From NCBI RefSeq assembly GCF_024508235.1, contig NZ_CP101943.1, positions 1,957,112 through 2,021,111 on the forward strand: a DNA stretch of 64,000 bases. Direction: 5' to 3'. Of the stretch, positions 49,972 through 60,137 are shown piece by piece. How positions within the stretch are numbered: the first letter of the stretch is position 1; each line of letters opens with the position of its first letter. A program made the position numbers and the translations under genes. Source of the stretch: Halococcus qingdaonensis (GTDB lineage: Archaea; Halobacteriota; Halobacteria; Halobacteriales; Halococcaceae). The notes under the pieces were generated by a model that saw only the letters and a list, made by a program, of their open reading frames with translations, was not told where the DNA came from and made no database searches.

Positions 49972-51324
49972 TCAGTGAACAACGGAGGCTGCCTGAACTG
50001 CATACTTCTCTGCGAGATCAACCACATCGTAGACGTGAATACCGGTTTTGAACCAAAGCAGCCTCTCAGCCCCGAGATCGATGTCCTCGCTCGTGCAGTC
50101 CAGTTCCTCGGATACCGCGAGCACCAGATTCTCTACATCGGCCTGCTGGATCTTGTCGAGTTTCTCCTCAAGATACTCGGGCGTCCAGAAGCCCACTATC
50201 TCGAGGATTGCCCGCCGGCTGTCAGGATGTTCCAGCGCGAAATCCGGTAGCAAGACCTCGGCACCCAGATCGATCACGTCGTCCTCGCGGACCAACTCCC
50301 AGTCGGTGTTCGCACGCTCCCACTTGTCAGCGAGCGTGCGTTCGAGGTCGCTGTCGTACCGGCTCCCACCGCTGTAGTGTGTTTGGAGCCCAGCCGTCTG
50401 ATCCAATGTGAGCTCGCGTGTTTCGTTCGCTGACTCGTCGACAAGAATCTCCGCCGTGAGGTCCCACCGTTCACAGTGAGGCAACGCGGGGAGGAAATTC
50501 GCCATCCGAATACCGTACTTGCGCGACTGCCGGAACAGCGAGGCCGGACCGTCCAGGATCGCTTCGTACCCAGCTGCGAGGTCCGTGCTCGACACGCGCT
50601 CGCCATGTTCGTCGATCGGATAGATCCGGTGCATCAGCCCGAACAGCTTCACGTAGCTGAATACCGTCGCAAACTGATCCCAGACCCGAATCCGCAGTTC
50701 GGTTGCGTCGTAGAGCACTGCCTGTGCGAGCGCGAGGTTATACCGGTTCAGCAGCCACTCAACGGTGAGTGCCTCACCTTTGTACGCCTCCTCGCTTTGA
50801 CCCGTCAACTGGGTCGTGCTGGTCGTCCCATCTGTATCCAGTTCGACCGACTCGGCGATCTGGTCGCCGAAGCGCACGAGCCGATTGTTCGCGTCGAGAT
50901 CCGCGTACATCCCCTGATGGCACTCCGCAAGCGAGATGCCGAGTTCGTCGGCGACTGCCGTGTAGACATCGAGCTTACGGGTATCCTCGTCGAGCGTCGG
51001 CTGCCGAACGATCGGATAGGAGTCGTTCGCACGCTCGAACAGTCGTTGACGGATCTCGTACGGCTCGGCTGCCGCCACCGTCTCGAAGTCGCACTCGTCA
51101 CGCAGCAGTTTCGCCAACCCCTGGATGATCTTGTAGTCGGTATCCGCCACCGTCAGCTGGTCGATCGCGGTGTCGAGGTCGGCCTTCGGATCACCCACGT
51201 GCGTCTCGAATAGCTCGACCAACTCGCTCGCCGTCTCTCGATACCGAGCGTCGTCGGGATCGATGAACAGCGGGGTTACCTCGCCGTCAGATGTCCGTGA
51301 GCGCGCGAGGTCCGCTGTCAGCAT
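49972..51324 (-). CDS. bax1: Bax1 (DUF790) nuclease partner of XPB
   Basis: This 450-residue protein is of the DUF790 family: start MLTADLARSRTSDGEVTP, middle YKGEALTVEWLLNRYNLALAQAVLYDA, and C-terminal RAILEIVGFWTPEYLEEKL with LLPDFAL (PD-(D/E)XK-like D...E.VGFW). DUF790 is known as Bax1, which binds archaeal XPB and cuts DNA next to the unwound region. Its gene starts 24 bases after the xpb stop, the standard arrangement. Confidence 0.9.
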   Translation of the reverse strand: MLTADLARSRTSDGEVTPLFIDPDDARYRETASELVELFETHVGDPKADLDTAIDQLTVADTDYKIIQGLAKLLRDECDFETVAAAEPYEIRQRLFERANDSYPIVRQPTLDEDTRKLDVYTAVADELGISLAECHQGMYADLDANNRLVRFGDQIAESVELDTDGTTSTTQLTGQSEEAYKGEALTVEWLLNRYNLALAQAVLYDATELRIRVWDQFATVFSYVKLFGLMHRIYPIDEHGERVSSTDLAAGYEAILDGPASLFRQSRKYGIRMANFLPALPHCERWDLTAEILVDESANETRELTLDQTAGLQTHYSGGSRYDSDLERTLADKWERANTDWELVREDDVIDLGAEVLLPDFALEHPDSRRAILEIVGFWTPEYLEEKLDKIQQADVENLVLAVSEELDCTSEDIDLGAERLLWFKTGIHVYDVVDLAEKYAVQAASVVH

Positions 51325-51348
51325 GGCTCATGTTCCATCATGGTCTGG

Positions 51349-52845
51349 TCACGCTCCTGCCTCGACACCTTCACGGCGACGCTGGGAGACGTAGTTCTCC
51401 ATCGTGTCTGTGGCGATGATCTCGTAGAGTCGTGCGGGCTGGCGTTCGTCGGTGGGCCGCAGGATGCGACCAAGACGCTGGGCGTACTGGCGTTTCGACG
51501 CGCTGCCAGAGAGGATGATTCCGACGTTGGCGGCGGGCACGTCGATGCCCTCATCAAGCACCTGCGAGGTCGCCAAGATCGAATACTCGCCGCTGCGGAA
51601 CCGTTCGAGGATCTCTGTGCGCTCGTCGGTCTTGGTTTGGTGGGTGATACACGGCACGATGAACTCTTGGGAGATCTCGTAAGCGAAGTCGTTGTTCGCG
51701 GTGAAGATGATCGTCCGATCGTCGTGATGGCGTTTGAGCAGCGTATCCAACGTGTCGAGTTTCTTCGCGGCCGTGCGCGCGAGATCCTCGGCACGCTGCT
51801 TGGCGATCAGTGCCCGCCGACCATCTGAATCGTAGGAGGTGTGCGCGAGGAACTCCTGATAGCCTTCGGCTTTCCAGAGGTCGAAATCGTGCGTGTCGAC
51901 GTACTCGCGATAGAGGCCGTACTCCTCGTCGTATTGGGAGCGCTCGTCGTCGGTCAACTCAACCTGCATATGGATGGTCTCGTACTCGCTGAGGTACTCA
52001 CCGGCGAGTTCGTCGACCGCCTCTTCGTAGACGACTGGGCCGATGAGCCCCGTCTCTTCGAGGAGTTCGTGAGCATCGTCGGCCCGTTCGTAGGTGGCCG
52101 TCAATCCGAGGCGATACGGAGCGATGGCCATCTCGGGGATCTGTCTATAGGTCGGGGCTGGCAGGTGGTGAATTTCGTCCGCGATCAGGAGGCCGAACTG
52201 GTCGCCGTACTCGTCGATATAGCGATACGCGCTGTCGTAGGTCGTCACCGTGATCGGCCTGATTTCATGCGTCCCGCCACCGAGCACGCCGATCGCCTGT
52301 TCGGGTCCGTCCCCTCCCTTGTGGGGCAGTTGGTCGCCGAAGGCGTTGGTGAGCGTCGCGTGCCACTGGTTCATCAGGTTGATCGTCGGCGCGACCACGA
52401 GCGTCCCGACACCAGCATCCGCGATCGCCTGGATGCCAAGAAACGTCTTCCCGCTCCCGGTCGGGAGCACGACACTGCCTCGTCGGTCATGGGTTCGCCA
52501 CGCATTGAGCGCCGCCTGCTGGTACTCGCGTGGCTCGATCTGGAGCGCCGGGTCGAGCGCAAGGGCAGGATACGCCCGGGCCGCGTCCTCGGCCGCAACA
52601 GTAGTCGACTGGATGGTTTCCTGCTGAGCTGGTTTCTCTACCGTAGAACCGGAGGTATTGCCATCCCATGCATCGACCCATTCGAGGAGGCTACGATAGC
52701 GATATGCGGGCGCGCGGTACTCCTTGACCCGGTCGTCCCACTCCACATATGGAACGTCCTCGCTGGCCTCTGGAAGTAGGAGCGTGCCCTCCTCGAACTC
52801 GATCCGCATCTGAGAGATACCACAGTCGGGACCCGAATAAGCCAT
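51349..52845 (-). CDS. XPB/Rad25 family DNA helicase
   Basis: This 498-residue superfamily 2 helicase unwinds or remodels DNA for excision repair. Motifs: Q-type REYQQAALNAW, Walker A LPTGSGKTFLG (about 157-166), DEIH box LLIADEIHHLP (about 250), LGLTATYERAD, GIDVPAANV and motif VI QRLGRILRP. ATG 52845 gives MAYSGPDCG; the frame continues upstream only because it runs into the inserted element. The IS701-type copy starts 5 bases upstream, separating the gene from its native promoter. Confidence 0.92.
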   Translation of the reverse strand: MAYSGPDCGISQMRIEFEEGTLLLPEASEDVPYVEWDDRVKEYRAPAYRYRSLLEWVDAWDGNTSGSTVEKPAQQETIQSTTVAAEDAARAYPALALDPALQIEPREYQQAALNAWRTHDRRGSVVLPTGSGKTFLGIQAIADAGVGTLVVAPTINLMNQWHATLTNAFGDQLPHKGGDGPEQAIGVLGGGTHEIRPITVTTYDSAYRYIDEYGDQFGLLIADEIHHLPAPTYRQIPEMAIAPYRLGLTATYERADDAHELLEETGLIGPVVYEEAVDELAGEYLSEYETIHMQVELTDDERSQYDEEYGLYREYVDTHDFDLWKAEGYQEFLAHTSYDSDGRRALIAKQRAEDLARTAAKKLDTLDTLLKRHHDDRTIIFTANNDFAYEISQEFIVPCITHQTKTDERTEILERFRSGEYSILATSQVLDEGIDVPAANVGIILSGSASKRQYAQRLGRILRPTDERQPARLYEIIATDTMENYVSQRRREGVEAGA

Positions 52846-52850
52846 ACTAA

Positions 52851-54093
52851 TTACTTGACTTCGCACGTTAGACGAACACCCCCTCGATCTGGTGCATGAG
52901 TTCGTCGGTGTCGCGGTCGGGACTGTTGAGTGCCCAGGAGAGAAGGTTCTGAACGCTTTCGCGGAAGGAGCGCTTGACGTCGTTGCGGAGTGAGCTCGCG
53001 CGTGCGAGAACCGTTCCAAGAGCGCTGTCTGCGGCACCGAGCTTCAGGAGGCTGTAGGCCAACATCAGCAGGTGCCAGTGCCGACTGGCACCTGCGGCGT
53101 GTCGGAGCTCGCAGTCTCCCAAACCGAGGTCCTGCTTGGTGTCCCTGAAGAACGTCTCCACCCGCCATCTCATCGCGTACAACTCGATGAGATGGCTTGC
53201 CGGCGCGTCGATCTTGTTCGAGACGATGTACTTCACGCTCGTCTCGCCCTCTTCGCCCGATTCCTTTTCGGTGATCAGCAACTTCACCTCCCCAAGACGG
53301 CTGACATCGCGTTTCTGCGTCCAGATGTGGTAGGTTTCACCTTCGATGGTGCGTGGGACTGTGTCGATGCGCTCGGCAAGCGCATCGATACGGATTCGTT
53401 CACCACCGTAGGTTACGCGTGCGTTGCTTTTGACCACTGAAACCCACTCTTTCCCGTAGGTTTCGAGATGGGTGACGAACTCTTCGGAGCAATAGCTCGT
53501 GTCGAAGAGATAGGTGTCCGCCGGGACACCTATCTCGATGAGTTCGTCGACGAGTTCGATGGCTAGCTCAACGCGTCGCTGTGCATCTTTTTCGTAGAGT
53601 CGGAAGCCGAGCGGGTAGGTGGTTTTTTCGTCGGCGTACAGCGCGTAGATGAGGTTCTGTCCCCAGATGTATCCTGGGACGGTGTAATCGTAGAATTTCC
53701 CGGCGTTGGGGATGTTCTCACCGACTTTGTGCGTGAAGGTGTCGTCGATGACGACGACACCTTCACTGCTCCATCTGGTATCGTCGGCTTGCTGGAGCAG
53801 TTCGAGTCGTTCTCGGTTGAGTTGGTTTTCGTCCCAGTCGTACTCGGTGAGGAACTTGTTGAGTGCGCGTTCGCTCTTCGCCGGAAGAACGTGGTTCGAG
53901 ATGCCTTGGACGGTCTTGTTGCTGGCGGCAACAAGACCTGTCACGTAGGTCTTGGCGTGGTGTTTCTGCCTCGTCGAGAAACACTCCAACTGGTCGATTG
54001 GCTCAGTACACGACAGGAACGACGTGATCGGTAGCATCGGCGTTTCACCCGCTCTCTACGCGCTCAGGCTACATAACGTGCGAAGTCAAGTAA
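52851..54093 (-). mobile_element. IS701-type insertion sequence immediately upstream of xpb
   Basis: Ends TTACTTGACTTCGCACGTTA (left, 52851) and its reverse complement at the right end (54074-54093, about 20 bases; 19-20 matching) bound a 1243-bp element. Flanking tetranucleotides are CTAA (52847-52850) and CTAG (54094-54097). Both fit the YTAR target known for IS701, but they are not identical, so a simple duplication is not proven. Confidence 0.8.
52868..54037 (-). CDS. IS701-family transposase
   Basis: This 389-residue DDE transposase has D in VVIDDTFTHKVG (about 96), D in YLFDTSYCSEEF (about 177) and E in MRWRVETFFRDTKQDLGLG (about 292), the expected order. Full length with no interruption, so it may be active. 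Transcribed in the same direction as xpb, it could supply read-through transcription to that gene. Confidence 0.88.
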   Translation of the reverse strand: MLPITSFLSCTEPIDQLECFSTRQKHHAKTYVTGLVAASNKTVQGISNHVLPAKSERALNKFLTEYDWDENQLNRERLELLQQADDTRWSSEGVVVIDDTFTHKVGENIPNAGKFYDYTVPGYIWGQNLIYALYADEKTTYPLGFRLYEKDAQRRVELAIELVDELIEIGVPADTYLFDTSYCSEEFVTHLETYGKEWVSVVKSNARVTYGGERIRIDALAERIDTVPRTIEGETYHIWTQKRDVSRLGEVKLLITEKESGEEGETSVKYIVSNKIDAPASHLIELYAMRWRVETFFRDTKQDLGLGDCELRHAAGASRHWHLLMLAYSLLKLGAADSALGTVLARASSLRNDVKRSFRESVQNLLSWALNSPDRDTDELMHQIEGVFV

Positions 54094-55203: not shown

Positions 55204-55575
55204 ATGTTCTCTTAGCTGTTGGAATGGTATAAATTCATGTGAAATTGTTCTCTTACGGCGATTTGTTAACCTCAACAGTCACTGAGATTGATGCCAAAAC
55301 AGATCTACTAAACAACCGAGTTCAAGAGTGCCGTCGAAGATGCTATCTATCATCTAATACGATCCTGACGGCCGGATTCTTGCCGTACTGGCCCCGAGAT
55401 CGATCTGGGGTCGGGCATGCATATCAATGCCCACCCCGCCGAAGCGGATTTTCGGATAGCTGAAACCATGCCAACCGTTCTATGACACCCTTTCGCTGTG
55501 CATTCTGTGTATGGCTCTCTTAGATCGTCATTTCTTTTCCGTGAATCTACTTTCAAATCTTCTCTCACTCATTAC
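55204..55575. other. Intergenic region without recognisable gene
   Basis: These roughly 370 bases of mixed composition lie between the membrane protein and an IS remnant. No frame on either strand looks protein-like. CGGCCGGATTCTTGCCGTACTGGCCCCGA (near 55370) is GC-rich but I do not recognise it. Probably decayed mobile DNA. Confidence 0.35.
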
Positions 55576-55694
55576 GCCGTGCGAGCGCAATTCTGGTATC
55601 ATGAGTTCCGAGAAATCATCCTAATGTTCGGTATCTCGAACATCGAACAACTTTGTGTGAAACTGTGATCACCGCGCCGTACCCCAATTCAACA
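55576..55694 (+). mobile_element. 3' remnant of an IS5-type element like that at 59220-60137
   Basis: This fragment encodes the last 30 residues of the IS5-type transposase at 59296-60111 (AVRAQFWYHEFREIIL then MFGISNIEQLCVKL, stop at 55666-55668). It continues to the inverted-repeat end CGCCGTACCCCAATTCAACA. Only a few differences separate the two copies. The rest of the element is missing, so it is a deletion remnant. Confidence 0.8.
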
Positions 55695-55837: not shown

Positions 55838-57778
55838 ATGTCAAAAGAACACGTGAAGCGTGGTGCGATCGTTGTAATCGCACTGTTGACGGTCATCGGG
55901 ATGACCGCGACACCGGTGCTTGCAAACGACACTTCAGCCACTAACGACTGTGATCTGGTGGATGTCGATGGTGACAACAACAAGGTAAACGTCGACATGC
56001 AGAACAGTGACGTGAACATCGATTGTGGAGGCGGCGGTGGCGCTGGTGCTGCCAGTGGTGGCAGCGCTGACGACGCCAGTACGTCTGACGGTGGAGACGC
56101 TGCTGGCGACAGCGGCGATATGTCGGTCAACGTGAACGGCAAACAAGTCGACGTCAACGGTGATGAAACGGATGGCGGCGATGCCGGTGACGGAGCGGAC
56201 GCTAGTGCCCAAGCGGATGCTAGTGCCCAAGCAGACGGAGGCGATGGCGGCGATGGTGGCAACGGTGCGGATGGCAGCGACGGAGCGAGTGGTAGCGATG
56301 GGTCGGACGGCGGTAACGGCGCGGGCAGCAGCGATGGTAGTGACGGTGCAGACGGCAGCGATGGTGCGAACACCGGTAATGGTGGAGACGACACCGCCAA
56401 TACTGGCGACAGCGACAACGACCAGAACGTGGGCGACATCGACAACAGCTCCGTTCTGCAGTACCTCTTCAACTACGACTTCATCGATCAGAGCGAGGTC
56501 AACGCGGCGATCAACAACGAGAACATCTCCAACAGCACGATCATCAACAACATCGTCAACGGTGATCAAACGGTCAATCTGAACAGCGTGTACGTCGATA
56601 ACAGCGTCACGAACATTGACAACAGCACGAAGATCGTTGTCAACAACAACGGTACGATCAACGTCATCAACGAGAACGGTCCCGGTGACGTGGAAACGCC
56701 ACCTGGTGATGACGACACAACGACGCCGCCCGGCGATGGCGATGACAACGACACAACGACGCCGCCCGGCGATGGCGATGACAACGACACAACGACGCCG
56801 CCCGGCGATGGCGATGACAACGACACAACGACGCCGCCCGGCGATGGCGATGACAACGACACAACGACGCCGCCCGGCGATGGCGATGACAACGACACAA
56901 CGACGCCGCCCGGCGATGGCGATGACAACGACACAACGACGCCGCCCGGCGATGGCGATGACAACGACACAACGACGCCGCCCGGCGATGGCGATGGGAA
57001 CCTCACCGACATTTCGGTGACGAAGTCGGCAGGCAACGCCGTCATCGACCCCGACGCAAACGCGAACGTGACGGTCCAGTTCACGGTTACTGTGACGAAC
57101 AACGGGAACGAGACCGCTGAAGACGTGGTGGTTCAGGACGAAATGCCACTGCTGAGTGAAACCGACCTCGCCGATCTCGAAACGAGCGCCGTCGTGCTCA
57201 TTGACGGTAGCTCGGACAACGGTAACTACGATCCTGGAACCGGGAACTTCACGGTAGGATCACTCGCCCCAGGCGAGAGCGCAGAACTGGAACTCACTAC
57301 TGCGGTCGTCATCGTCGGCGACTCTGAAGTGAACAACACGGCAACGCTCCTTACGGACGACACCACTCCCGACAACAACGTGGGAACGGTCGAGTTCGAG
57401 ACGTTGGTCGGAGTGATCACGGAACCATTGGCAGACGTGTTCGAGAGTACGCTCGGGGAAGTACTCGATCCGGTGCTCAACGCGCTGGGAATCGACGACC
57501 TGACCAGCTTCCTCGAAGACGAAATCCTAGCGGGCAACGTCGACCTCGGTGAACTGGTCGATAGCCTCGATGGGGGTCTAACGGGAGTTATCGAGATCCT
57601 CGAAAACCTCACGGGTCAAAATTTCACTGGCGCGCTTCCAGCTGATGCTGGTGGTACCACATCGCAGGCAACCAACGGCTCATCACAGCTTGGATTCCCA
57701 TCTGGTGGCCTCGCATTCGGTGGCCTCAGCGTCTTGGGAATGTTCGGTAGCGTCCTGCTGTTGCAGCGGCGCGACTGA
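55838..57778 (+). CDS. Secreted, surface-anchored Asp/Gly/Asn-rich repeat protein
   Basis: This 646-residue protein has a signal peptide (GAIVVIALLTVIGMTATPVLA, cut near residue 30), then a DCDLVDVDGDNNKVNVDM unit ending in IDCGGGG (about 37-65). A Gly/Asp/Ser stretch follows (about 65-200), then Asn-rich beta-type repeats (about 205-285). Seven identical 12-residue units PPGDGDDNDTTT form a stalk (about 297-380). A DUF11-like adhesion domain (about 390-505) and a final hydrophobic segment with basic end (LAFGGLSVLGMFGSVLLLQRRD) complete it, resembling archaeosortase or membrane anchoring. Asn-x-Thr/Ser sites abound. Confidence 0.8.
   Translation: MSKEHVKRGAIVVIALLTVIGMTATPVLANDTSATNDCDLVDVDGDNNKVNVDMQNSDVNIDCGGGGGAGAASGGSADDASTSDGGDAAGDSGDMSVNVNGKQVDVNGDETDGGDAGDGADASAQADASAQADGGDGGDGGNGADGSDGASGSDGSDGGNGAGSSDGSDGADGSDGANTGNGGDDTANTGDSDNDQNVGDIDNSSVLQYLFNYDFIDQSEVNAAINNENISNSTIINNIVNGDQTVNLNSVYVDNSVTNIDNSTKIVVNNNGTINVINENGPGDVETPPGDDDTTTPPGDGDDNDTTTPPGDGDDNDTTTPPGDGDDNDTTTPPGDGDDNDTTTPPGDGDDNDTTTPPGDGDDNDTTTPPGDGDDNDTTTPPGDGDGNLTDISVTKSAGNAVIDPDANANVTVQFTVTVTNNGNETAEDVVVQDEMPLLSETDLADLETSAVVLIDGSSDNGNYDPGTGNFTVGSLAPGESAELELTTAVVIVGDSEVNNTATLLTDDTTPDNNVGTVEFETLVGVITEPLADVFESTLGEVLDPVLNALGIDDLTSFLEDEILAGNVDLGELVDSLDGGLTGVIEILENLTGQNFTGALPADAGGTTSQATNGSSQLGFPSGGLAFGGLSVLGMFGSVLLLQRRD
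56726..56977 (+). repeat. Seven perfect 36-bp tandem repeats coding PPGDGDDNDTTT
   Basis: The unit CCGCCCGGCGATGGCGATGA... is repeated seven times without visible change, preceded by a shorter degenerate unit and followed by a partial one. It encodes a Pro/Asp/Thr-rich stalk within the secreted protein. Perfect copies suggest recent expansion or gene conversion; copy number is likely variable among strains. It is not a CRISPR array because there are no spacers. Confidence 0.92.
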
Positions 57779-57900
57779 ACACTAACCGCGTTCCATTTTT
57801 GACGGCTGGTGTCGCTGCGACGGCGACACGCCCGAACGCGAAACAGCACAAAAATGAAAATGATTGGAAAATTCAACAAATTTCATTATCCATCACTGAG

Positions 57901-58785
57901 ATGGTACAGCAGATCATGACAGCAAAACGATTCACAATACTACTCATTGCACTCTGTACGCTTGCGGGGGCCGCAGTCGGCGGTGTCGCTTCGATACCGG
58001 TGGCCGGACCAACCACGCCGACGAACATGGCTGGTTCCACGATGAGCGATGCCGGGGACACCAACGACTCCGCGGCCCGAACGAGCGACTGCGATGTCGT
58101 CGATATCGACGGCAACGCCAACACCGTCTCGGTCAACCTCACGAACAACGGTTCGGCTGACGACTCCAACGCGAGTGTACAATTACGCTGTGGCATCGGC
58201 AATGCCACGACGATCGATCACGATCTCATCGACATCGATGGCGACGACAACACGGTGCGCGTCACCATTGCCAGTGAGAACGGCTCGGTCATCATCGGTA
58301 ACGGGACACGAACCCCTGGTCCGAGCCTCGGTGTCGCGCTCGGCTGTGGCGGCGGTGACGGGTTCACCGACTGTGACGCGGTCGATATCGACGGTGCCAA
58401 CAACTCGGTCGAACTCGTCGTTCGAAGCGACAACGGACGAACGATCTACGAGTTCGATGCGAGTGGTACCGAACGCGGTGCGAACGACGAAGATGACGAT
58501 GGTGACGGTCACGTCGACGAGGACGACGAGGGGAGTGCAGGCCCCTCCAACGATGACGACGACGGTGATGGTGCGATCGACGAGGACGATGAACCCGACG
58601 ACGGCGACGACGGTACCGACGATTTCGGAGGGAACGCCGAAGACGATGATGATGGCGACGGTCACGTCGACGAAGACGACGAGTCCGACAGCGGCAACTC
58701 GGACGATGTCGACAACGATGGTGACGGTGCAACCGACGAGGACGACGAAGCATCGCTCCCGGAAGCCAACTCAACCGACGACTGA
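57901..58785 (+). CDS. Secreted Asp-rich protein with three DxDxVDIDG units and acidic tail
   Basis: This 294-residue protein has a signal peptide (FTILLIALCTLAGAAVGGVA, about 10-30). Three copies follow of a unit reading D(C/H)D(V/L/A)(V/I)DIDG, then two residues, N(T/S)V: DCDVVDIDGNANTVSVNL, DHDLIDIDGDDNTVRVTI and DCDAVDIDGANNSVELVV. The upstream gene has one such unit. The tail (about 185-294) is DDDGDGHVDEDDE-like, a likely Ca2+-binding acidic array similar to thrombospondin type 3 repeats. No C-terminal anchor. An in-frame ATG also lies at 57916. Confidence 0.75.
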   Translation: MVQQIMTAKRFTILLIALCTLAGAAVGGVASIPVAGPTTPTNMAGSTMSDAGDTNDSAARTSDCDVVDIDGNANTVSVNLTNNGSADDSNASVQLRCGIGNATTIDHDLIDIDGDDNTVRVTIASENGSVIIGNGTRTPGPSLGVALGCGGGDGFTDCDAVDIDGANNSVELVVRSDNGRTIYEFDASGTERGANDEDDDGDGHVDEDDEGSAGPSNDDDDGDGAIDEDDEPDDGDDGTDDFGGNAEDDDDGDGHVDEDDESDSGNSDDVDNDGDGATDEDDEASLPEANSTDD

Positions 58786-58878: not shown

Positions 58879-59219
58879 ATGTCCGAATCGAGCGAGACGG
58901 CGAGCGAGCCGTACCGAGTGTGCTCGAGACGGTCGTGACCGATCGCGGCGAGGGGACGGCAATCGTCTTCGCGCACGGGACGCTGATGGATCGAACGATG
59001 TACGACTCGCAGATCGACGCCCTCAGCGACGATTACCGGACGGTGGCCTACGATCTCCGGGCGCGGACCGACCAGTACGCGACCGAGTACGATCTCTACG
59101 ATCTCGCCGACGACATCGTCGCTCTGACCGATGCGCTCGACATCGACACGTTCGTCCTCTGTGGGATGTCGATGGACGGGTTCATGGCGTTGCGGTTCGC
59201 CGAGCGGTATCCTGTACTC
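58879..59219 (+). pseudogene. Alpha/beta hydrolase gene broken by a frameshift and an IS5-type element
   Basis: ATG 58879 (28 bases after ACTATAAG) opens MSESSETASEPYRV, but an extra TG near 58920 shifts the frame. The fold resumes in the second frame as LETVVTDRGEGTAIVFAHGT (oxyanion HGT), YRTVAYDLRARTDQY and nucleophile elbow LCGMSMDGFMALRFAERYP, where the usual G-x-S-x-G has D for the last small residue. The IS begins right after RYP, and no C-terminal part is found on its other side. Confidence 0.75.
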
Positions 59220-60137
59220 TGTTGAATAGAGGTACGGCGGCGGGATAGATCGTCACATCGGTAAGGCGAAGCCGAGGAAGACCGATATGGCGTAAGTGGA
59301 TCTCCTCGACTTCTTGAGGGACTGTAAGCGGCTTGCCATACAAGCATTGGGACCAACGCGGGCAAGCCCACCTTCGGAGGTTGCCCGCTGGAAGCATCTC
59401 GTCATTCACGGATATCGGCTCGAAGACGACCACAGCTACCGTGAAACCAAGAATCGGTTCCGGTGTTTCAGCGAGCTGCGTGAGATTCTCGGACTCGGTC
59501 TCAACGATGCTCCAGACTACACGACGATCTACAAGTCGTTCGATCGATTCAAGATGACGATCTGGCGGGCGTTGCTCCGCGTTTCAGCGGAGCAACTCCT
59601 GCAGTCCGGTCACGTCGCTCTCGACAGTACCTTCTTCGAACGTAGTCACGCCTCATCGTATTGCCTTCATCGAGCAGATCGAGATGTACAGACACTGAAA
59701 GTTGCGACATTAACCGATACGGAGTCACCTGCTGCGTTGGATCTACAGTGTTCGGTCGAGTGGAAGCACGATACGAAGCTCGGATCGCAGGTTGTTCGGC
59801 GGAACGCCGACGACCTGCTCTCAGTCGCCGCTGACAAAGGATTTCACGACTGGATGAGCAAGTTCGAATTCTACACGCTCGACGTTGACCCGCTTGTTCT
59901 CGAACGCGGATCCTCACTGGAGACAGTTGGCCATAACGCGCTGATTCGGGACGCTGGATACTCTCAGCGGTGGATGTCCGAAACTTCGCACTCAACAACC
60001 AAGCGCTCGCTCGGCTCCGCCGTGCGAGCGCAATTCTGGTATCGTGAGTTCCGAGAAATCATCCTGATGTTCGCTATCTCGAACATCGAACAACTCTATG
60101 AGAAACTGTGATCACCGCGCCGTACCTCAATTCAACA
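59220..60137 (+). mobile_element. IS5-type insertion sequence
   Basis: The 20-base ends are TGTTGAATAGAGGTACGGCG (left, 59220) and, inverted at the right (60118-60137), TGTTGAATTGAGGTACGGCG, one mismatch. Length 918 bp. Flanks (ACTC left, CGGC right) do not show a target duplication, and the hydrolase gene does not continue on the right, so a deletion or rearrangement followed insertion. Confidence 0.82.
59296..60111 (+). CDS. IS5-family-like transposase
   Basis: This 271-residue DDE transposase has D in GHVALDSTFFERSH (about 112), D in SVAADKGFHDWMSK (about 184) and a C-terminal E region SLGSAVRAQFWYREFREI. GTG 59296 (VDLLDFLRDCKR) is the first start in frame. Intact. The same family's C-terminal 30 codons are found at 55576-55668. 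Confidence 0.85.
   Translation: MDLLDFLRDCKRLAIQALGPTRASPPSEVARWKHLVIHGYRLEDDHSYRETKNRFRCFSELREILGLGLNDAPDYTTIYKSFDRFKMTIWRALLRVSAEQLLQSGHVALDSTFFERSHASSYCLHRADRDVQTLKVATLTDTESPAALDLQCSVEWKHDTKLGSQVVRRNADDLLSVAADKGFHDWMSKFEFYTLDVDPLVLERGSSLETVGHNALIRDAGYSQRWMSETSHSTTKRSLGSAVRAQFWYREFREIILMFAISNIEQLYEKL

Follow-up and report, generated by a model that had tools for sequence, protein, structure and literature searches.

Two neighbouring genes of Halococcus qingdaonensis, here called P1 and P2, encode proteins that share a short aspartate-rich unit. The question that the locus raises is twofold: what kind of structural element is this unit, and do the two proteins act together at the cell surface? 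In the following, 'the window' denotes the whole stretch of 64,000 nucleotides that was analysed, and all positions refer to it.

A shared unit in two predicted secreted proteins

The two adjoining open reading frames are present as originally predicted (Table 1); the listed start of P2, a TTG at 57799, lies too early, and the ATG of the orthologue in the congeneric genome G007 matches position 57916. Hydrophobic N-termini suggest that both proteins are exported, and a hydrophobic segment at the C-terminus of P1 probably serves as the membrane anchor that had been proposed, while NCBIfam revealed no named sorting signal at this terminus. In P2, which has no anchor, the signal peptide is followed by three units and these by a tail of about 104 residues. 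The tail is acidic and carries four DxDxDGxxDxxD/E loops, in keeping with the Ca2+-type tail expected of it. The first reading of the locus overlooked a Gly-X-Asp stretch and a DUF11 domain in P1 as well as the displaced setting of the genes between insertion sequences.

Table 1. Features of the P1-P2 locus and its flanks (positions in the window)
Feature	Position	Strand	Description and basis
IS remnant	55575..55690	+	matches the 3' end of the downstream IS copy (60018-60133) with 93% identity
P1 gene	55838..57778	+	646 aa; predicted exported, C-terminally anchored stalk protein; ORF; homologues in seven genomes of one genus, its own included
P1 signal peptide (predicted)	55838..55924	+	about aa 1-29, ...TPVLA/ND; hydrophobic N-terminus kept in orthologue; helix H3-23 in model
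P1 unit	55946..56026	+	DCDLVDVDGDNNKVNV with degenerate partner stretch DVNIDCGG; dN/dS 0.079 against G007
Gly-X-Asp/Asn stretch	56165..56416	+	10 strict triplets in a row at aa 134-163; degenerate relative to homologues (15-26 triplets)
Asn/Ser/Val-rich conserved region	56426..56680	+	VGDIDNSSVLQYLF...NSTIINNIVNGDQTVNLNSVYVDNSVTNIDNS; conserved alignment block
36-bp minisatellite	56712..56996	+	7.9 copies, 100% matches; codes for TTTPPGDGDDND linker
DUF11 domain	57008..57391	+	aa 391-518; PF01345, 59.5 bits against a cut-off of 24.6; strands modelled
P1 C-terminal hydrophobic anchor (predicted)	57689..57775	+	RRD end; by sequence
P2 gene	57916..58785	+	predicted exported protein, three units and acidic tail; ORF and orthology
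P2 unit 1	58087..58137	+	regex, unit profile, DUF3060 rung matrix
P2 unit 2	58216..58266	+	first Cys replaced by His; regex, unit profile
P2 unit 3	58369..58419	+	regex, unit profile, DUF3060 rung matrix
P2 acidic tail	58471..58782	+	four DxDxDGxxDxxD/E loops; 87% identical in orthologue; common to a G007 nuclease
Alpha/beta hydrolase 5' fragment	58926..59213	+	broken before transposase; intact copy at 0.39 Mb of own genome
DDE transposase, downstream IS copy	59296..60111	+	

The unit has the general form D-x-D-x-[VI]-D-[VI]-[DE]-G-x-x-N-x-V. Across 14 units D1, D3, D6, G9, N12 and V14 are invariant, and the aspartate at position 8 is nearly so. The predicted count of one unit in P1 (DCDLVDVDGDNNKVNV, beginning at residue 37) and three in P2 (DCDVVDIDGNANTVSV, DHDLIDIDGDDNTVRV and DCDAVDIDGANNSVEL) holds. 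Residue shuffles almost never yield the pattern (1 in 50,000 for P1, 0 in 200,000 for P2), which excludes chance as its source. The units of P2 are spaced more closely than the 60-100 residues claimed, namely by 43 and 51, and the bracketing by cysteines is complete in two of the four, the P1 unit and P2 unit 1, but not in P2 unit 2, where a histidine takes the place of the first cysteine, nor in P2 unit 3, which is devoid of the second. The dN/dS ratio of the P2 unit region is 0.43 in comparison with G007.

Probable relationship of the unit to DUF3060

The unit had been regarded as undescribed. It matches the cysteine-bearing rung of DUF3060 (PF11259), a domain of secreted proteins or lipoproteins of actinobacteria, far above controls though below the Pfam cut-off, and the Pfam, profile and matrix comparisons with this domain rule out an entirely novel unit. 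P2 scores 19.9 bits against the Pfam model (gathering cut-off 23.1) and the best single unit 15.6 bits, while P1 has no DUF3060 match in Pfam. For comparison, DUF3060 matches were collected from 27 of 197 actinobacterial genomes and the coding ones were read; genuine members contain VDVQGDSNQVQV-type cores that recur with a period of 17-18 residues. A profile comparison between the unit and these genuine sequences reached a score of 25.0 with a probability of 77%, against a maximum of 17.5 in 200 column shuffles, 9.0 for the reversed profile and 9.5 for DUF11.

A matrix of 15 residues was built from 11 actinobacterial DUF3060 Cys-rungs, none of them from the haloarchaeal family under study. 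Applied to the 44,953 15-mers of 136 haloarchaeal ORFs, it placed 13 haloarchaeal units in the top 13 ranks, with scores of 29.0 to 10.5, followed by a next best 15-mer at 6.3. The resemblance does not extend to every unit: P2 unit 2 and the two units of G011 score 4.5-5.7, no better than background, and the listed top of the matrix includes none of the second units of G001, G004 and G005. Set side by side, a DUF3060 rung reads CDDVDVDGSGATVTF and the P1 rung CDLVDVDGDNNKVNV, and the matrix and profile tests find in the units the rung pattern C-x-x-h-x-h-x-G-x-x-x-x-h-x-h. The two groups have in common the core C-x-x-[VI]-x-[VI]-x-G-x-x-N-x-V-x-[VF] and their occurrence in proteins that are, or here appear to be, exported.

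What sets the haloarchaeal proteins apart, besides their archaeal origin and sub-cut-off scores, is the isolation of the rungs. Instead of tandem rungs every 17-18 residues, the spacing is 32 or 34 in two-unit proteins, which is about twice the DUF3060 period, and 43 and 51 in P2, with weak intermediate strands at most between the units. Here the rungs are also fused to a Gly-X-Asp stalk or an EF-type tail. A second Cys-bearing strand (VxVxC), as in DUF3060, seems to be present nonetheless: short VxLxCGxG stretches lie between the units (VQLRCGIGN and VALGCGGGD in P2, VNIDCGGGG in P1) and, read by eye, resemble the DUF3060 strand VVVDC. An AlphaFold model of the P2 unit region, computed with seven sequences, predicts a strand-turn-strand for each unit (pTM 0.60, with block pLDDT reaching 83 in the cores of the units) and extra short strands at the VxLxCGxG stretches. 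Foldseek comparison of this model with the PDB and with viral models returned nothing significant, and the search of the PDB by sequence gave no match. Homology between the unit and DUF3060 is probable yet unproven, because beta-helix rungs can converge and VxVxGxxNxVxV patterns recur in beta-helices generally.

The aspartates of the unit invite a different interpretation, namely a lineage-specific Ca2+-binding loop unrelated to DUF3060, the proteins serving in ion buffering or mineral binding at the surface. The invariance of Asp 1, 3 and 6, with position 8 nearly invariant, would suit such a loop, as would the four EF-type loops that P2 carries as well. However, the aspartates alternate with valine or isoleucine in the manner of a beta-strand, the conserved glycine, asparagine and valine together with the cysteine positions fit the DUF3060 rung, and a high aspartate content is a general trait of haloarchaeal proteins. 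We therefore regard a Ca2+ loop of separate origin as unlikely and treat the unit in what follows as a putative rung.

The proposed stalk of P1 and the acidic tail of P2

The model of the whole of P1 is mostly below a pLDDT of 50 and informative only for DUF11 and the C-terminal helices. By its place in P1, a helical region follows DUF11 and precedes the hydrophobic C-terminus. P1 resembles other DUF11 surface proteins in containing the full domain but differs from them in that DUF11 is one stem module rather than the entire protein. The copy number of the minisatellite that encodes the linker is probably strain-variable.

The Gly-X-Asp stretch is more conspicuous in six homologues of P1, where 15-26 uninterrupted triplets carry aspartate at nearly every third position. 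Its glycine periodicity exceeds that of shuffles, and the variation of codons within it means that it is more than a recent expansion of DNA. The six homologues pass the cut-off of Pfam Collagen (PF01391) with up to 59.7 bits, and NCBIfam models of Scl-type collagen-like adhesins match them too, whereas the P1 copy in the window, with its 10 triplets, has no Pfam Collagen match. Like the collagen-like adhesins Scl1/Scl2 and Lcl, P1 appears to be exported and C-terminally anchored, with a Gly-X-Y stalk and a non-collagen domain at the tip; unlike them, the P1 family has Gly-(A/S/T)-Asp triplets without proline, no LPXTG and a DUF11 domain in the stem, and its triple helix is putative.

Could the stretch be a true collagen triple helix, with the rung and the Asn-rich regions arranged in a trimeric fibre? 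The uninterrupted triplets of the homologues, their Pfam and NCBIfam matches and the varied codons speak for such a fibre, and bacterial collagen-like regions with little proline and many charged residues are able to fold (PMC8968730). Against it stand the absence of proline, an aspartate in nearly every Y position and the shortness of the run in the window copy, as well as similar runs elsewhere in the order, such as a (GSD)n spacer after an apparent lipoprotein cysteine (L155) and a run in a large acidic protein (L145). Order-wide Collagen matches were rejected as support for a triple helix, many being antisense frames or simple linkers. Annotation of haloarchaeal DNA can be misled more generally, since a Pfam Collagen match frequently comes from an acidic linker (SGSSGSS...) read in antisense. 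Because like runs are ordinary linkers elsewhere in haloarchaea, the triple helix is unproven and a flexible acidic spacer at least as likely; a collagen fibre is in our estimate improbable, if fully compatible with a DUF3060-type rung at the tip of a P1 stalk.

The tail of P2 is its most constrained part, with a dN/dS of 0.055 against G007 compared with 0.25 for the entire protein. Its four loops compare with an expectation of 0.012 in shuffled tails, and none of 20,000 shuffles reached four. The same tail forms the C-terminus of a secreted-looking Exo_endo_phos nuclease of G007 (L004:1489-3186, minus strand), with 88% identity over 96 residues, and this recurrence marks it as a separate, mobile C-terminal module. 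Its loops resemble those of thrombospondin type 3 and EF-hand repeats, but by sequence the flanking helices are missing, and Pfam calls neither an EF-hand nor a TSP3 repeat in P2. Ca2+ binding is putative, and the tail plausibly serves either this purpose or retention in the wall.

Distribution, displacement and possible function

A search with a profile of the 14 units covered 392 genomes of the order. Matches with E of about 1e-4 or better are confined to one haloarchaeal family and nine genomes, the seven that encode P1 and two of another genus in the same family (G010 and G011), each with one exported-looking protein of two units. The G011 protein runs on into a region rich in Thr, Ser and Pro; at L138:4571-6079, likewise in a genus of the family other than that of P1, two units are followed by an extended Thr/Ser/Pro stretch and, at the C-terminus, by a repeat rich in strands, GGEVVVEDVRIEGGQF... 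A wider spread in the order was dismissed, as the matches with E of about 0.002-0.1 fall in unrelated proteins or frames and are taken as chance. No relatives were found in viral contigs or plasmids, nor any of P2 in the genome contigs of named organisms; in the contigs of named organisms the P1 family hit DUF11 regions alone, in proteins of other phyla.

The P1 profile has homologues in seven of ten congeneric genomes and none in the other genera of the family. For P2, the 18 genomes of the family yielded a single orthologue, in G007 (68% identical); there, too, P2 adjoins the P1 orthologue (76% identical) with the gene order preserved, and an alpha/beta hydrolase comes next. P2 thus occurs in two of the ten congeneric genomes and adjoins P1 both times. 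This conserved adjacency fits the proposed partnership, but five P1 homologues lack P2, which weakens the case for partners and eliminates an obligate pair: P2 may need P1, while P1 does not need P2.

The P1-P2 segment has been displaced in the genome of the window. The P1 homologue of G004, G005 and G007 is located between purF and the GGPP synthase gene. That of G001 likewise adjoins purF, while G002 and G006 carry theirs at a different site. In the genome of the window, purF, the GGPP synthase gene and the intact hydrolase lie at 0.39 Mb with no surface gene between them, and P1, P2 and the 5' fragment of the hydrolase are found at 2.01 Mb. The fragment is 91.5% identical to the intact copy (L181) at the DNA level, and one insertion sequence borders the segment on both sides in the same orientation (a remnant at 55575-55690 and a copy at 59296-60133). 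The empty purF site, the broken hydrolase and the flanking insertion sequences together indicate displacement, whether through an old duplication or through transfer from a closely related genome. Further upstream, adjacent genes for a DUF790 protein and an XPB-type helicase (49972-53037, minus strand) neighbour an IS701-family transposase (52868-54037).

Such a history, and the presence of P2 in so few genomes, would also suit an accidental or decaying companion that travels with P1 on the IS-flanked segment and has no joint function with it. Purifying selection on P2 and above all on its tail, the shared unit and the same placement in G007 argue against this reading; a mere companion is in our view doubtful, albeit the least doubtful of the alternatives.

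The explanation that we prefer, and in which we place about even confidence, is that the unit is a beta-solenoid rung of the DUF3060 type, though a divergent one, P1 a surface stalk with a rung at its tip, and P2 a secreted accessory with Ca2+ loops, the whole serving adhesion. Each rung would be a strand-turn-strand with valines facing inward and aspartates outward, present in one to three copies per surface protein. P1 would be exported by means of its signal peptide and held by the C-terminal hydrophobic segment, so that DUF11, the Thr/Pro/Asp linker, the Asn-rich region and the Gly-X-Asp spacer follow from the membrane outward and the N-terminal rung forms the tip. The three rungs of P2 would offer open beta edges, and the four EF-type loops of its tail probably bind Ca2+. 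Stacking of the open edges of isolated rungs, P1 on P1 or P1 on P2, together with contacts of Ca2+-loaded tails to the acidic wall, could then hold neighbouring envelopes or cells together. What the analysis shows is the architecture of the proteins, their conservation, the likeness to rungs and the gene neighbourhood; the fold, Ca2+ binding, the stacking of rungs and adhesion are inferences. A bolder version is that of rung complementation, in which single rungs are the sticky tips of archaeal collagen-like stalks and the three-rung, Ca2+-loaded P2 completes a solenoid between the stalks of adjacent cells; we consider this a long shot.

The walls of Halococcus are sulfated polysaccharide envelopes rather than S-layers (PMC13321033). 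The haloarchaeal S-layer signal family has no match in the genome of the window, a result in keeping with a place in this polysaccharide-walled genus but no proof of it, and one that lends candidate envelope proteins of the genus some value; proteins attached to a polysaccharide wall are of interest. DUF3060 itself has a single passing mention in the literature searched. The relationship proposed here would link this unstudied bacterial domain, reduced to isolated rungs as its smallest form, to surface proteins of archaea, and the fold and binding of such rungs are testable on pieces of 30 residues.
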